Assembly: GCA_012730015.1 (NCBI GenBank)
Contig: JAAYBT010000118.1
Location: 1 to 34,819, forward strand
DNA length: 34,819 nucleotides
Direction of reading: 5' to 3'
From: Clostridiaceae bacterium
GTDB taxonomy: Bacteria; Bacillota; Clostridia; Acetivibrionales; DTU013
Made by a program: the position numbers and the translations under genes. This document shows, piece by piece, positions 6,513 to 34,819 of this stretch. The notes under the pieces were generated by a model that saw only the letters and a list, made by a program, of their open reading frames with translations, made no database searches and was not told the origin of the DNA. Each line of letters begins with the position of its first letter. Position 1 is the stretch's first letter.

Positions 6513-8462
6513 TTATATATCATAGTACTTGACTATCTTCTCGAAATCATCAAGCTTCAGGCTCGCGCCGCCGACCAGACCACCATCGATGTCCGACATG
6601 TTGAACAGCTCATTTGCATTTGCTGCATTAACGCTGCCGCCATACTGGATGCGAACAGCATCAGAGGTTTCTTCGCCATAAAGAGCCTCGACGGTCTCCC
6701 TTATGATGGTGCATACCTCATTGGCCTGCTCATTGGTCGCCGTTTTTCCTGTTCCAATTGCCCAAATAGGCTCATAGGCAATAACAAGATTGCATACCTG
6801 CTCTGCGCTAAGGCCAAGAAGAGCAATCTTCACCTGATATCTAATAAGATCGGCTGTAATCCCCTGCTCTCTTTGTGTAAGTGACTCGCCCACACAAACT
6901 ATGGGTTTGAGCCCACACTTAAACGCAGCGTGAACCTTCTTATTTACAGTTTCATCGGTCTCGGCGAAATACTGTCTTCTCTCCGAATGGCCTATAATGA
7001 CGTAGTCTACTCCCAGATCCTTAAGCATTGGTCCGGATACCTCTCCAGTGAAGGCGCCCTTATCTTCCCAGTGCATGTTCTGGGCGGCAACCTTTATATC
7101 TGAACCTTCTACAGCCTTAATCACGTTAGGAATGCATACAAAGGGAACCCCTACAACAACCTCGGTGTCGACATTTTCCACTCTGGGCTTAAGCTCATTT
7201 ACAAACTCAAAGGCTTCTGCAGCTGTCTTGTTCATCTTCCAGTTTCCTGCAGCAATCTTCTTCCTTGAATTTTTGTCAAGTAACACAGCTATACCCGGAA
7301 GCACCTTGCCCTCAAGGAATTCGAGTGAAGCACCGCCGCCTGTAGAGATGTGTGTTATCCTGTCTGCATAGCCCAGCTGTTCAACAGCTGCAGCTGAGTC
7401 TCCTCCGCCTACGATGGAAACAGCGCCGGAATCTGCAACAGCCTTGGCTATTTCTCTGGTGCCCGTTGCAAAGTTCTCAAATTCAAATACGCCCATAGGG
7501 CCGTTCCACACAATAGTCTTGGCCTTTTGTATTTCCTTGGCGAAGGTTTCTATTGTCAATGAGCCTATATCCATGCCCATCCAACCGTCGGGCATATCGT
7601 CGGAGGGAACATACATATGCTCGGTGTCATTCTTAAATTCCTTGCCGACAATGCTGCCTACTGGAAGCATCAATTTTACACCCTTCTTATCCGCTTTCTC
7701 GAGGAGGCTCTTCGCAAGATCCAGCTTATCCTCTTCACAGATAGAATTACCTATCTTGTAATCCTTTGCCTTCAGAAAAGTATAGGCCATGCCTCCGCCT
7801 ATGATCAATGTATCCACTTTGTCCAGAAGATTCTCAATAACACCGATTTTATCTGAAACCTTTGCGCCACCCAGTATTGCAACAAAGGGTCTTGCAGGGT
7901 TTAATAAAGCCTTACCCATAATGCCTATTTCCTTTTTAATCAAATAGCCGCATACAGCCGGCAGATAATCGGCCAGTCCAGCAGTTGAAGCGTGAGCCCT
8001 GTGTGCTGTTCCGAAAGCATCATTCACGAATATCTCCGCAAGCGTAGAAAGCTCTTTTGCGAAGGCCGGATCATTCTTTTCCTCTTCCTTGTGGAATCTG
8101 ACGTTCTCCAGCATCAGTATTTCTCCATCCTTCAGCGCAGCAGCCTTCGCCTTTGCATCAGGACCGATTACATCGGCAGCCATTATTACAGGTTTGCCCA
8201 GAATTTCACTTAATCTGATAGCCGTAGGCTTCATGCTGAATTTCGCTTCAGGACCGTTCTTCGGTCTGCCCAGGTGGGATACTAGTATTATTTTCGCACC
8301 CTTGTCAACTAGATATTGTATAGTGGGGACAGCTCCAACGATTCTCTTATCATCGGTTATGTTGAGATCATCATCCAGCGGTACGTTAAAGTCAACTCTT
8401 ACAATTACCCTTTTACCCTTTACATCGATATCTTCAATAGTCTTTTTATTGTACAATGCCAT
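6513..8462 (-). CDS. pgk-tpiA: Bifunctional phosphoglycerate kinase / triosephosphate isomerase fusion
   Basis: One uninterrupted ORF: PGK N-terminal part ([13 protein letters not shown] ... [13 protein letters not shown] ... [19 protein letters not shown]) runs directly into TIM ([15 protein letters not shown] ... [13 protein letters not shown] ... [15 protein letters not shown] ... [10 protein letters not shown]). Likely start ATG 8462 after AAGGGTGAATTGC. Confidence 0.95.
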
Positions 8463-8615: not shown

Positions 8616-9629
<1,014 letters not shown>

Positions 9630-9691
9630 TTATTACCTCCTATATAAATTGTGTATTTCACTCTTTGTTGCCAACATTCAAACCAACAATA

Positions 9692-9720
9692 ATTTTACAT
9701 TATTATATCCATTTTTTCAA
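9692..9720 (-). promoter_or_regulatory. Predicted sigma-A promoter of gap / glycolytic operon
   Basis: Minus strand TTGAAA - 17 nt - TAAAAT upstream of gap. Confidence 0.55.
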
Positions 9721-29464: not shown

Positions 29465-29618
29465 GACCAACGCCGCTTTTGGACTAGCGGAGCCCCCCTT
29501 CCTTGGCGGCGCTTGCCGCCCGGTGAAGGAATGTGGTGCCTGCTCGCGCTCCTGCTGTCGATGGTATAAGGCTGGGTGACTTTCCCCTGGCACCCTTGCG
29601 CTGACTGCTTTGTTATGT
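29465..29618 (-). repeat. attC-like site A (distal-most; R' side degenerate or truncated)
   Basis: R''/L'' side ACATAAC AAA GCAGTCAGCGCAAGGGTGCCAGGG is clearly homologous to sites C, D and F; no convincing R' box, GTTGGTC is the best candidate. Confidence 0.5.
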
Positions 29619-29733
29619 AAAGTACCGCCCACCCTCCGGCCGCACGGCAAGGCCAAGGCTGGAGCCCCTTTTCTGTTCATATTAATTTATATAATATTCG
29701 TTGATATTTTCACCGCACCAAATTGAAATTCAA

Positions 29734-30189
29734 TTAGAAATAATGCTCCATTAATCTGTACACCCATTCCGGCACAGTAGCATTTTCCTTATAATCATAC
29801 ATTGGATAGTAAGGTTTGATATCTATTATTGGAGTTGAGTTAATTGCATCCAGCCCCTTTACAATCAGTGTATCATTTTTTAACGACATGATTTGAACTG
29901 CTGTTATTCCAATTTGATTTGGCCTATCCTTCCCTCTTTGAGAAAAGATGCCTACTAAAGGCATATCTTCTCTGTTTTGCGGCTTGCGCTGTATATGTTT
30001 ATCTCTTTCAAAATGTGCTTTATCTAAATAATAAATAATAATTGCATGAGAAAAATCATCTAAACCTTTTAGGCCACCTGAGTATTCTTCTTCTAATATG
30101 ATTTTTGATACATCCTCACCCCAAGTAGTGTCCTTTCTATTTTCTATTTCGTTACTCACGTAACCAATCGGATTTAATGATATAGTCAT
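29734..30189 (-). CDS. TrmO/TsaA-like tRNA methyltransferase-family protein (cassette gene)
   Basis: ISLNPIGYVSNEIENRKDTTWG...GIFSQRGKDRPNQIGITAVQIMS...DIKPYYPMYD. Confidence 0.88.
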   Translation of the reverse strand: MTISLNPIGYVSNEIENRKDTTWGEDVSKIILEEEYSGGLKGLDDFSHAIIIYYLDKAHFERDKHIQRKPQNREDMPLVGIFSQRGKDRPNQIGITAVQIMSLKNDTLIVKGLDAINSTPIIDIKPYYPMYDYKENATVPEWVYRLMEHYF

Positions 30190-30316
30190 TATTCAATCTC
30201 CTTTACAAATTCCTCTTTATATAATATTTACTTTATACGTGGCGCATCCTTTTTACAGAGCGCTTGTTATTCGCCCGACGGCCGGAAGCCCGGGCGACGT
30301 CGATGGACTACATTTC

Positions 30317-30452
30317 GCAGAACGTGTTCGCACTCACGACATCCTTGAACCGGACCTCAGAGCCCTTCTCCTTAGCGGAGCTCCGCTCCCGGTGAGACGG
30401 TGTGGCAGACATGACCCGTGAGCACGCCCGAAGCGTGAAAATATTGTTCTCT
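30317..30452 (-). repeat. attC-like site B
   Basis: R'' AGAGAAC, R' GTTCTGC(GAAAT); L-box pairing weak. Confidence 0.6.
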
Positions 30453-30593
30453 GATGTGAAGGGCTCTGCAAAGCCTAGCCGCCATGGACGGCGGCGCCCT
30501 TAAATAACTTTGAAAAACCACTTACTACATCATTTATAAAGATTACGACCACAATACTATCACTGTATATGTACTCTTATAATAAAGCGAAGG

Positions 30594-31046
30594 TTACCTA
30601 TCTGTCTGTTCTGTCATAAGTCCCCATCTAAAACCAAATTTGTCTATCAAACTACCTACACAGGAACTGTATGTCGTACTACGCAAAGGATAGATTATCG
30701 TACCTTCTTCTGATAAAATTCTATATGCTTGCTTAACCTCTTCTGCTGTATCAAATGTAATAGTCAAAAATATGGAAGTAGCTTTAGAATATTCTTGTTC
30801 CATTTCATCAGCAAGCATAAACCTCTGTCCTCCAATATATCCCTCTGAATGATATACGAATTTCTTTTGTTCCTCTGATAATTCAATATTCCAATCATGT
30901 TTGTCTGCATCACTATAATGCAATATATGACTGATTTTCAAATCAAAAGCTTTTTGATAAAAGCAAATCGCTTCTTCGCATCTTCCTTGAAAATGCAATG
31001 TAGGTGTAACAATCATCATAATCCCCTCCGAAAAATATATAATCAA
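30594..31046 (-). CDS. VOC superfamily / PhnB-like protein (cassette gene; likely start MMIVTPTLHF near 31019)
   Basis: TPTLHFQGRCEEAICFYQKAFDLKI...FGFRWGLMTEQ. Confidence 0.88.
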   Translation of the reverse strand: MIIYFSEGIMMIVTPTLHFQGRCEEAICFYQKAFDLKISHILHYSDADKHDWNIELSEEQKKFVYHSEGYIGGQRFMLADEMEQEYSKATSIFLTITFDTAEEVKQAYRILSEEGTIIYPLRSTTYSSCVGSLIDKFGFRWGLMTEQTDR

Positions 31047-31143
31047 TATTCCGCCTTATACAGCAATCGTGCATAGCAACCTTACATAGATAGAACCCAT
31101 GCATATCGGGCCACGGATGGCGCGTCCTTTTGCCCTCCATTTC

Positions 31144-31306
31144 AGAGAACGTCCCGGTTTTACGACGCCGACGAACCGGACCAGCGGAGTCCCTGGCGGT
31201 GCTTGCACCCGGTGAAGGAATGTGGTGTGCTGTAGGGACAATTATTTCAGGAACCAAATCCGGGACTCAGACCATGCACACCCTTGCGCCGACTGCTTTG
31301 TTATGC
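31144..31306 (-). repeat. attC-like site C
   Basis: R'' GCATAAC AAA GCAGTCGGCGC; R' GTTCTCT(GAAAT); internal homology to A, D and F. Confidence 0.65.
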
Positions 31307-31367
31307 GCAGTACCATCCACCTTCCAGCCGCACGGCAAGGCCAAGGCTGGAATTCCTTATAACTAAA

Positions 31368-31640
31368 TCAATCCTCATAATGTCCTTTACACGAAATAAT
31401 CATCAAATTGTTTTTATCATCAAAAACGTACACCAACCTATGTTCTTCGTTAATCCGTCTGCTCCAAGCCTTTCGATACTTTAGTGGTTCAGGTTTCCCA
31501 ATACCTTTTGATAAGCCATTTCTTTCAATATCTTTCACAAGATCATTAATACGTTTGAGTATCTTTTTATCTTGAGTTTGCCACGATAAATAATCATCCC
31601 AGGATCTATCCGACCATATTTTATTCATCACTAACCTCAA
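31368..31640 (-). CDS. yoeB: YoeB/Txe-type mRNA interferase toxin (cassette gene)
   Basis: WSDRSWDDYLSWQTQDKKILKRINDLVKDIERNG...KPEPLKYRKAWSRRINEEHRLVYVFDD...CKGHYED. Confidence 0.95.
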   Translation of the reverse strand: MRLVMNKIWSDRSWDDYLSWQTQDKKILKRINDLVKDIERNGLSKGIGKPEPLKYRKAWSRRINEEHRLVYVFDDKNNLMIISCKGHYED

Positions 31641-31875
31641 TCAGTTCATGAACAGTTCCCTTTCCAGATGCAAGCTGTTCCATTGATCTGTCAATCATTG
31701 CAAGGTATTCTGCATTCCTCACTGCTTTTATCATTGAGTTGTATTCCTCTAGGCTTATTATTACTACATTCTTTTCATCTTTACGGGTAACAATTACTGT
31801 TTCACGATCATCAGTAACGCGATCACAATATTCCTTCAATTTATTTCTTATTGTTGAATAATTTACAGCCAACAT
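31621..31875 (-). CDS. yefM: YefM/Phd-type antitoxin (cassette gene)
   Basis: MLAVNYSTIRNKLKEYCDRVTDDRETVIVTRKDEKNVVIISLEEYNSM; overlaps yoeB. Confidence 0.95.
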   Translation of the reverse strand: MLAVNYSTIRNKLKEYCDRVTDDRETVIVTRKDEKNVVIISLEEYNSMIKAVRNAEYLAMIDRSMEQLASGKGTVHELIEVSDE

Positions 31876-31894
31876 ATCAAATATCTCCTTTCAC

Positions 31895-31926
31895 GTACGT
31901 ACAATATTATGTACAATATATTGTAC
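31895..31926. promoter_or_regulatory. Putative YefM-YoeB operator
   Basis: GTACGTACAATATTATGTACAATATATTGTAC: tandem and inverted GTACAATA arms, perfect GTACAATATATTGTAC palindrome, TGTACA core at 31910-31915. Confidence 0.65.
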
Positions 31927-32019
31927 CATTATTGCGCTTCATTTTCAAGAAATAATACACGTAGAGTGCATATTTTCGCCCGTGGTCGGAGACAGGGCGA
32001 CGTCGGTGGATGGTATTTC

Positions 32020-32238
32020 GCCTAACGTCTCGCAGTCGCGACGCCGATGAGCTGGACCCTCGAAACCCTTCTCCTTGGCGGTGCTTGCCACCTAGTATGT
32101 TGAGTGCGCTAGCACGAATTACCTTTACAACATACAAAGGAGCGAATCGGTGTGGTGCCTGCTCGCGCTCCTGCTGCCAATGGTATAAGATTGGATGTCA
32201 TTCTCCCTGGCACCCTTGCGCCGACTGCTTTGTTATGC
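32020..32238 (-). repeat. attC-like site D
   Basis: Gene strand GCATAAC AAA GCAGTCG[G]CG ... CGCGACTGC GAGAC GTTAGGC. Confidence 0.8.
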
Positions 32239-32383
32239 GTAGTGTTGCCCATCCTCCAGCCGCTCGGCGGAGTCAAAGCCGGATTTCCTTATTTATTCTT
32301 TTTTATTCTTTTTTCTTCTTTCAACATATATAAACATTACGCATCAATCTCGGTACAGAAAATGCTTATTTGCTTTGGTTTGA

Positions 32384-33114
32384 CTATTCATATTGAAATG
32401 GTACATAAGGTAAAACTGCCCATGTTATATCATCGGCTGAAATACTTCTTGGCTCTAATTGTCTGTAGCCAACAGTTGCGTTTTGACATGGATAAACAGC
32501 ACATTCTATACAGGTTTTATATTCTTTAGTTTGGAGACATTTCAATGGCTCGCACAACTCATTACCATCGCAATAACAATGACAGCCAGATGTATTACAT
32601 CCAGTGCAACGCATATTCCAATCGGGATTCCCATACACCGCAGTTAGATGTGGAATTAACATTTCTCTGAAATCTTCAGCAAGTCCTGTATAATGAACAC
32701 ACAAATCGCATCGGTGTCCGCATTTCCCATACACTGCATTTTCTTTTGGGAACGGTTTTCGATTAGGGTTTTTCTTGATTAAGACGAGTTTTTTTACTTC
32801 CTCTAAGGTTTTAAGGTTATCCACTCGTATCAAGAGCCATTTCCCATCATGAAGAGTGCGTTCTCTGTCATAAAGTTCTTGTATTTCTTTGGAGAATTCA
32901 TTACGCTGTGCATCAAATTTTTCTCGTTCTTTTTTACCGAGAATAAGCTGAAAATCATAGTGCTTCTCGTGTATATTAATAGAAAGAATGGTTTTTTTCC
33001 TTGACGAAACTTCAAGCAATCAATATCGTAATACTTGCCAGCTACTTCATCAAGTCGATATTTCCCACGCATAAATTTTACAGTTTCAAGCTTTACTTTA
33101 CCAAATTCGGTCAT
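32384..33114 (-). pseudogene. DUF3788/DUF3795-like cassette gene split by a -1 frameshift at an A7 run
   Basis: MTEFGKVKLETVKFMRGKYRLDEVAGKYYDIDCLKFRQGKK in one frame continues in the -1 frame as ...TILSINIHEKHYDFQLILGKKEREKF...GKCGHRCDLCVHYTG...C-rich tail. Confidence 0.65.
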
Positions 33115-33264
33115 TATTCTTCACCCCGAGCTAATATAAATTTTGAGTGCTACAGTTTCAGTCTGCTTAAATAAATTATCCATACTGCACAATATCATAC
33201 CAATACGCAGAGCACCTTTTTCGCCCGACGACGGAGTCCGGGCGACGTCGGTGGAATGCATTTC

Positions 33265-33449
33265 ATATAACGGTTTGCATTTGCGACGCCTGCCTGCTTA
33301 CAGGAAGGCGCTTATGCCCGGGTGCCCTCCGGGCGGGCTAATGCGGCGACCGACTCGGTTAGCGGGCGGGTGTGAGCAGGAATGACATCATGCCCTGCTC
33401 ACAACGCCATGCTACATGCTTTGCCCTTTATGCAAATGCGTTGTTATGT
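33265..33449 (-). repeat. attC-like site E
   Basis: Gene strand ACATAAC AAC GCATTTGC ... GCAAATGC AAACC GTTATAT; L-box sequence differs from D and F but stays complementary. Confidence 0.78.
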
Positions 33450-33497
33450 AAAGTTGCGCGCCCCTCGAAGCCAGAGATTGACAGGACGTCAGTCCCA

Positions 33498-34331
33498 TTA
33501 ATTCTTTGAGTTTAAGCTAAACCAATACACATTATACTCATATTCTTTAATAAATCCCAGTTTTTCAGCTAAGTTATAAGATGCTACATTATCTTTCATA
33601 CAGTCCCAATATGAATTAGCTCCAAGATTCATATGTGCTTTTTTTACCTCTTGTGCTACTAATTCGGCAAAACCCCTGCGTCGATAATCCTTTACTGTTT
33701 CAATACCTATTGTATATGTTGAACCTGCAATAAATCCTGTGTACGCAGTACTCACAATCCATTTATCTGTAGTAATACAGTACCCAACACCTTTAGATAA
33801 AAAATTAGTCTTTGTCCCCCAAAAACTTTCAATGATATTTAATAAAAACTCAATATTTTCATACTCTTTTGATTTTTCCAAAACATTACTTATTGACTGA
33901 AGATAGAAACCTTGTGGAACATGACTAACTTGATTAATGTTGAAATCTGACTTTTTGAATGTATAGACAATTTGTTTTCCAACACAAAGACCTCTAGACG
34001 AGAAAACATCTTCAATTGTCTGTTCCCATCCAGGGTCACCACTTACCTCAAAATCATTGAAGCCAACATCCTTGAGCCTTTGAACCAAATATCCATCTAT
34101 AAAAGAATTTAATCCACTGATAAATGTATTATTTTCACAATCTCCTATTAAATGAAAGCCTTCCATTCCTTTGCACCAAATTAAGGCTGTTATCGGATTA
34201 TCCTTACTATCAACAAAAATCCATCCAGGATTATTACCATCAACAACCGCAATAGCTTCTGGCCTAAACTTATTTTTTCGTTCAATTAAATCTTTGACTA
34301 AATAAAAATCTTCATTATGTAGCTCAATCAT
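33498..34331 (-). CDS. GNAT acetyltransferase, ZmaR/GNAT_acetyltran-like (cassette gene)
   Basis: AIAVVDGNNPGWIFVDSKDNPITALIWCKGMEGFHLIGDC...TIGIETVKDYRRRGFAELVAQEVKKAHMNLGANSYWDCMKDNVASYNLAEKLGF. Confidence 0.85.
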   Translation of the reverse strand: MIELHNEDFYLVKDLIERKNKFRPEAIAVVDGNNPGWIFVDSKDNPITALIWCKGMEGFHLIGDCENNTFISGLNSFIDGYLVQRLKDVGFNDFEVSGDPGWEQTIEDVFSSRGLCVGKQIVYTFKKSDFNINQVSHVPQGFYLQSISNVLEKSKEYENIEFLLNIIESFWGTKTNFLSKGVGYCITTDKWIVSTAYTGFIAGSTYTIGIETVKDYRRRGFAELVAQEVKKAHMNLGANSYWDCMKDNVASYNLAEKLGFIKEYEYNVYWFSLNSKN

Positions 34332-34398
34332 TATTCCTTACCCAGAGCCTTCCCTAGTATTCCCGTGCCCGGACGGCATGGTTTTTGCACTGTCTTTC

Positions 34399-34618
34399 TG
34401 CTAACGTCTCGCAGTCGCGAAGCCGATGAGCAGTGACCCGCGCTAACCCTTCTCCCTGGCGGTGCTTGCCACCTAGTATGTTGAGTGCGCTAGCACGAAT
34501 TACCTTTACAACATACAAAGGAGCGATTCGTTGTGGTGCCTGCTCGGGCTACTTCTGTTAATGGTATAAGGTCAGATGTCTTTCCCCAGGCACCCTTGCG
34601 CCGACTGCTTTGTTAGCT
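34399..34618 (-). repeat. attC-like site F
   Basis: Gene strand AGCTAAC AAA GCAGTCGGCG ... CGCGACTGC GAGAC GTTAGCA; R'' and R' changed together relative to D. Confidence 0.8.
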
Positions 34619-34665
34619 GATGTCGGACGGCCCATGACTCGGAGCAAGCCACGGATGGCTTGCCC

Positions 34666-34819
34666 TCAACTAGTCTCTATACCACTAAAAGCTTTGTTGC
34701 ACTCATCATTTATAGCAGTCTTCATTTTATCAATGAAATCATAGAACTCAGTACCTTTATATACCGAGCCTTCGATCTTATATGCATTTATTGGTATACC
34801 TTCAAATCTATCATTTTGA
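34666..34819 (-). CDS. C-terminal end of an unidentified cassette ORF (truncated by the window edge)
   Basis: Minus-strand translation NDRFEGIPINAYKIEGSVYKGTEFYDFIDKMKTAINDECNKAFSGIETS*, immediately upstream of attC F. Confidence 0.55.
   Translation of the reverse strand, partial: QNDRFEGIPINAYKIEGSVYKGTEFYDFIDKMKTAINDECNKAFSGIETS

Follow-up and report, generated by a model that had tools for sequence, protein, structure and literature searches.

The leader with which the cassettes of a clostridial integron array begin probably belongs to an extended attC recombination site as its outer half on the right-hand side; the site would be completed in the excised cassette circle. We draw this reading from the sequences of the two cassette ends, because the arm of a leader is complementary to the end of its own cassette, with one fixed mispair in the paired stretch and a hairpin on each flank. 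Many of the sequences are from draft metagenome assemblies, and all are from one order.

A leader shared by unrelated cassettes

The window, that is, the whole stretch of 34,819 nucleotides that was analysed, is one whole contig (C47) of an assembly of 2.85 Mb in 278 contigs. Its final 5.3 kb hold a minus-strand cassette array, open at the contig end. The hallmarks of attC sites are present, namely R'' (..AAC), R' (GTT..) and the inverted repeats L'' and L'. R' was located by a profile of attC right halves, and R'' from the complementarity of L'' and L' together with the AAC core. The leaders behind R' and the tails before R'' are both of two types:

29496..34615, minus strand: cassette array with the complete cassettes A, E, D, C and B; attC sites of about 120-210 bp
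34612..34680, minus strand: tail of the cassette truncated by the contig end, with hairpin CAAGCCA-TCCG-TGGCTTG and R'' AGCTAAC
34340..34405, minus strand: type 2 leader of cassette A (GNAT), with R' GTTAGCA, arm GAAAGACAGTGC, hairpin TGCC-GTCCG-GGCA and a GGCTCTGGG box
33443..33512, minus strand: type 2 tail of cassette A, with R'' ACATAAC
33200..33271, minus strand: type 1 leader of cassette E (DUF3788/3795), with R' GTTATAT and arm GAAATGCATTCCACC
33221-33245: leader hairpin of cassette E, TCGCCCG-GACTCCGTCGT-CGGGCGA, followed by a GCTCTG box and a -10-like TATGAT
32232..32300, minus strand: tail of cassette E, with a type 1 hairpin, arm GATGGGCAACACTAC and R'' GCATAAC; no match to E's own leader
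31960..32026, minus strand: type 1 leader of cassette D (yefM-yoeB), with R' GTTAGGC, arm GAAATACCATCCACC and a hairpin at about 31977-32001
31300..31365, minus strand: tail of cassette D, with hairpin CCAGCC...GGCTGG, arm GGTGGATGGTACTGC and R'' GCATAAC; complements the D leader
31085..31150, minus strand: type 2 leader of cassette C (glyoxalase-like), with R' GTTCTCT, arm GAAATGGAGGGC and hairpin GCCA-TCCG-TGGC
30446..30520, minus strand: tail of cassette C, with type 2 hairpin GCCGCC-GTCCAT-GGCGGC, an arm and R'' CAGAGAAC
30250..30323, minus strand: type 1 leader of cassette B (trmO-like), with R' GTTCTGC, arm GAAATGTAGTCCATC and a hairpin at 30271-30297
29612..29680, minus strand: tail of cassette B, with a type 1 hairpin, arm GGTGGGCGGTACTTT and R'' ACATAAC; B's own leader matched poorly
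32088-32137 and 34470-34515: palindromic insert TATGTTGTAAAGGTAATTCGTGCTAGCGCACTCAACATA, found also at about 2400-2445 of locus L020 and about 1550-1660 of locus L021, with two copies in contig C68

The earlier note on this DNA had placed a conserved leader just after R' in three cassettes, at 30271-30316 (B), 31976-32019 (D) and 33221-33264 (E), and it was confirmed at all three sites on the minus (gene) strand. Cassettes E, D and B indeed start with R' (GTTATAT, GTTAGGC and GTTCTGC, respectively), and behind R' come GAAAT, a short variable stretch, TCCAYCGACGTCGCCC and CGGGCGAA. The core TCCAYCGACGTCGCCC, of 16 nt, has exactly three exact copies in the 2.85-Mb genome, those of sites B, D and E, and a 72-nt query taken from the E leader finds B, D and E together with contigs C241, C68 and C246 of the same genome, as well as two copies each in G001 and G002, which represent other genera of the family (E-values of about 5e-5 to 7.5e-32). 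As the earlier note had proposed, cassette 5' ends were collected from related genomes and a covariance model was built, from ten copies of this type 1 leader; it retrieved further copies in these genomes and in G035, a member of another family. Far from being absent from other cassettes, the element occurs on three further contigs of this genome and in three relatives. The genes behind it are unrelated, as had been claimed: TrmO, YefM-YoeB and DUF3788/3795 in the window and, as read from the sequence elsewhere, HAD-like, APH-like, NUDIX-like, VOC-like, methyltransferase-like and L-PSP-like genes. The leader is thus conserved, cassette-borne and gene-independent, and a larger duplicated block including the coding sequence is ruled out, since the downstream genes are unrelated. 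Among 391 genomes drawn evenly from the class and screened with strict filters, only G000 and G002 were positive for the type 1 leader; a search for its spread found no match in plasmids, phages or viral contigs, and the Rfam 15 models gave no family match in the array region except one chance-level hit.

The window cassettes A and C also bear a leader, of a second kind, type 2 (R'-GAAAG/GAAAT...GCAAA-hairpin, TCC in the loop). An order-wide search with the attC of this array found arrays in G038, G041, G034, G054, G044 and G022 whose cassettes begin with type 2 leaders, a type that is widespread among the other integron arrays of the order. In its layout, R' is followed by GAAAT or a close variant, some 7 nt with GC as a frequent ending, a GC hairpin and a GGCTYTG box. 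Leader and tail types agree, by eye, in nearly all cassettes. Hairpins scoring at least 18 are present in 47% of the leaders, 30% of the tails and 1.3% of shuffles. A hairpin structure is conserved at both cassette ends, with stems that are unrelated (also among type 2 leaders) and loops of TCC type. Wobble counts in the hairpin stems (G.T against A.C) were 8 v 4 and 10 v 7, which does not tell DNA and RNA apart. The first cassette beside intI is also leader-bearing, and the conserved leader extends up to about 60 nt into the cassette. We take the leader hairpin, provisionally, to bound or support the folded site.

Some features of the array touch other parts of the cassettes. The DUF3788/3795 gene of cassette E (32384-33114, minus strand) occupies two overlapping frames, 94 and 211 aa long; a frameshift is probable close to the run of A at about 32998. 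The attC site of cassette D (31150-31300, minus strand) is chimeric, its left half AGCAGTCGGCGC and right half CGTCGTAAAACCGG coming from different attC families, and its L stem is poor (score 8). Several attC sites share the palindromic insert, of about 50 nt, in the region of their terminal loop.

Complementarity between the two ends of a cassette

The first 19-22 nt or so of a cassette, comprising R' and the arm, are complementary to approximately the last 19-22 nt up to its own R''. Leader and tail of one and the same cassette were compared in 54 distinct cassettes, drawn from eight genomes. With the 7-nt R boxes left out, leader arms scored on average 7.76 against the tail arm of their own cassette and 3.65 against those of other cassettes (n = 54; 0 of 20,000 permutations), the cassette being the statistical unit and the relatedness of arm families within genomes being not fully removed by the permutation test. 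The same was found for type 1 alone (7.25 v 4.27; 2 of 20,000 permutations) and for type 2 alone (7.90 v 3.64; 0 of 20,000); some cassette boundaries had been set by hand after the complementarity was noticed by eye, and most type 2 boundaries come from a rule that ignores the arms. Leader arms compared with the adjoining tail of the neighbour in the array gave 3.49 over 37 junctions, that is, no complementarity signal.

Per-position identity stays high up to position 19 in type 2 (0.76, then 0.07 at position 20) and up to position 22 in type 1, the arms being positions 8-19 and 8-22, respectively. Over positions 13-19, 38 of the 55 cassettes match at 6 or 7 positions, and differences there are compensated: among 56 cassette pairs with leader differences at 1-2 of these positions, the tails differ in 49 in such a way that every pair is kept. 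Position 11 behaves otherwise, with an identity of 0-2%, an A in the leader in 54/54 cassettes and a G at the complementary place of the tail in 51/54. This fixed mispair is A.C when the gene strand is read and T.G, a wobble, when the bottom strand is read. Among matched cassettes, mispairs favour the wobble on the bottom strand in 46 of 47 cases at position 11 and by 27 v 13 elsewhere.

In the window, the leader arm of cassette D (GAAATACCATCCACC) is fully complementary to D's own tail and that of cassette C (GAAATGGAGGGC) partly so, while A, B and E are unmatched. Only 2/9 cassettes of this genome match at >=6 of the 7 positions, versus 10/12 in G034 and 12/16 in G054, and the window array is a worn example of matched-arm cassettes. 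In raw counts, 26/32 cassettes are matched in G001, G034, G035 and G054, where an integrase homologue was found, and 12/23 in G000, G002, G038 and G041, where no integrase passed the threshold.

The arms belong to a limited set of families (GTTATATAAAATCGCGYGC, GATATATGGAATTCCCTGC, GTTATCGGAAAGATGAGGC and others) that recur with different genes, both within and between species; examples lie in loci L086 and L087 (G034) and L088, L089 and L092 (G054). Chimeric cassettes, in which leader and tail come from different families, also exist (e.g. L086 11193).

Other possible roles for the leader

A 5'-UTR element, an insulator and a promoter component had been put forward in the earlier note. These readings appear at best secondary, as the first 20 nt or so of the cassette are half of an inverted repeat with its own 3' end. 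It is possible, though we hold it doubtful, that the leader is a 5'-UTR or promoter module, whose hairpin and box would let each cassette be expressed from a signal of its own, without reliance on a common promoter. Leaders lie 60-100 nt upstream of start codons, a conserved GGCTYTG-like box stands behind both types, and the -10-like hexamer after the type 1 hairpin reaches a mean best score of 5.3, against 3.57 +/- 0.49 in shuffles; the box of C246 reads TATAAT and several type 1 boxes are TGn-extended. However, B and C241 are without a -10-like box, none was seen by eye in type 2, no clear -35 was recognized, and such a module leaves the cassette-specific complementarity to the 3' end unexplained. 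Cassettes that bear a promoter-like sequence of their own have been described (PMC6557892); compared with such promoter-bearing or ORF-less cassettes, the promoter-like box is here only part of a leader common to unrelated genes. Since type 1 hairpins are followed by a -10-like box with a frequency above that of shuffles, type 1 leaders may have an additional role in expression, which leaves room for the promoter component of the earlier proposal.

Rather unlikely, but a live rival, is the view that the leader is a relic of cassette birth: genes would have been inserted into, or captured beside, a ready-made palindromic tail-attC-leader unit, and the arms would be the old palindrome halves, of no present function. 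Among the roles suggested in the earlier note, where it figured as a relic of how cassettes are made, this one came closest. It fits the recurrence of a limited set of arm families with different genes and across species, the chimeric cassettes (such as that of L086), and the fact that arms match least in this genome, which yielded no integrase, and well in the integrase-bearing G034 and G054. In this genome a worn relic would look the same, precisely because no integrase was found there. Against it as the best explanation count the matched arms and the fixed mispair. Indeed, pairing kept in 38/55 cassettes and in 49/56 pairs of similar arms would need selection, repair through a folded form or many independent origins, and the invariant A.C/T.G mispair is unexpected for a decaying perfect palindrome.

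That the leader hairpin insulates the cassette, as an intrinsic terminator blocking readthrough from upstream cassettes, seems improbable: about half of the type 2 leader hairpins do consist of a GC-rich stem followed by 3-5 T, but these T-tracts are short, and behind type 1 hairpins the gene strand reads GAAAA and has no T-tract. For type 1, the idea of a terminator does not hold up, A and not T standing behind the hairpin. Pairing of the 5' and 3' arms in a cassette's own transcript, as an mRNA panhandle, is very improbable, for although the gene strand of a cassette carries both arms, and these complement each other, 46/47 mispairs at position 11 of matched cassettes are A.C on the RNA strand, and mismatches on that strand that are wobbles on the other are in excess.

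A proposed split attC site and its integrases

We therefore return to the leader as the outer half of an extended attC site. Each cassette would carry, at its 3' end, a tail hairpin, an arm and R'' with the remainder of attC and, at its 5' end, R', the complementary arm and the leader hairpin. Excision to a circle would bring these ends together, and the two arms could then pair, which would extend the 7-bp R''/R' stem to about 19-22 bp. The long stem would hold a single invariant mispair, at position 11, and have a small hairpin on either side. As the arms of array neighbours mismatch, this long stem would exist only in the circle.

Predicted folding, computed with DNA parameters for the circle junction and the array junction, agrees with this scheme: on the bottom strand, a cassette's own circle folds 8.8 kcal/mol better on average than the array site, and is more stable in 30/37 cases. 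For cassette D, the circle is predicted to fold into the leader hairpin, a long stem with attC, and the tail hairpin. In classical attC sites it is the bottom strand that recombines (PMC2727003); here, the evidence for this strand is indirect and consists of the wobble asymmetry and the predicted folds, the predicted bottom-strand preference of the whole circle being slight (-0.9 kcal/mol). We infer that the stem may form in single-stranded bottom-strand DNA, that the mispair could help strand choice, and that, thanks to the long stem, integration of the circle would have a better substrate than excision from the array.

The sites resemble classical attC (class 1, Vibrio) in their R''/R' with AAC/GTT cores, their L''/L' repeats, the cassette boundary in R' and the self-pairing of the ends. 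In most classical cassettes the pairing goes beyond the R boxes, with 9-11 consecutive nt paired in all (PMC2727003), and class 1 control cassettes gave about 10-13 nt (aadA1, aadA16, catB3, aac(6')), with 7 for blaOXA-2. Unlike these, the present sites pair over 19-22 nt with an invariant mispair at position 11, have a conserved hairpin flanking each end, and mostly have L stems without a bulged base. The L stems measure 8-10 bp in most of the 37 attC sites; 23/37 align without a bulge, and no fixed extrahelical G was found. As the site is attC-like, yet fails two textbook features, we file it as a variant: an extended attC with a split outer stem is most likely an unusually long variant of the known attC.

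The arrays of G001, G002 (where the open frame is broken) and G034 adjoin a recombinase gene, which is followed by the R' of the first cassette. Homologues of the array integrase were found in G034, G054, G001 and others; in this genome none passed the threshold, the sole match to TIGR02249 being short and partial. The array integrases match this IntI model over most of its length, but at 211-233 bits, below the family cut-off of 265, and the best stretch of the G001 integrase ends at model position 180. By eye, all are without the insert between the two catalytic halves that bears the IntI patch. Three of five array integrases pass the cut-off of NF040815 (XerA-type recombinase/integron integrase).

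These recombinases form a family of tyrosine recombinases of about 355-400 aa, with an extra N-terminal stretch of about 90 residues and no IntI patch:

L046 2953-4155, L101, L100, L103 and L106: patch-less recombinase family; adjoins cassette arrays where read (G001, G034)

In G002 the integrase gene (L045 10298-11261) is split into two open frames and is therefore probably broken, with intact homologues in G001 and G034. The array of G038 contains transposase-like sequence, apparently fragments (L083, about 9000-9700 and about 7100-7600), which we take to resemble an IS110-type transposase.

Tentatively, the patch-less, XerA-like integrases of these clostridia may use a different site code, in which a cassette-specific split stem would replace the extrahelical bases read by the IntI patch. 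The stem, completed only in the circle, with its invariant T.G wobble and two flanking hairpins, would mark the right strand and favour integration of the circle over excision from the array.

Integrons in Firmicutes are not new as such, since a review already lists this phylum among those with integrons (PMC8618304). A literature search on clostridial integrons, with subscription papers outside its reach, found nothing on this leader. Here is an integron lineage whose integrases appear patch-less and whose attC stems are mostly without extrahelical bases. To our knowledge, cassette 5' ends are usually regarded as empty space. In these arrays they would be half of a recombination site, tied in sequence to the other end of the cassette, and would offer a candidate mechanism, open to test, for telling the circle from the array site. 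Matching arms may moreover serve as a record of which ends belong together, and so help to spot chimeric cassettes and the birth of cassettes.
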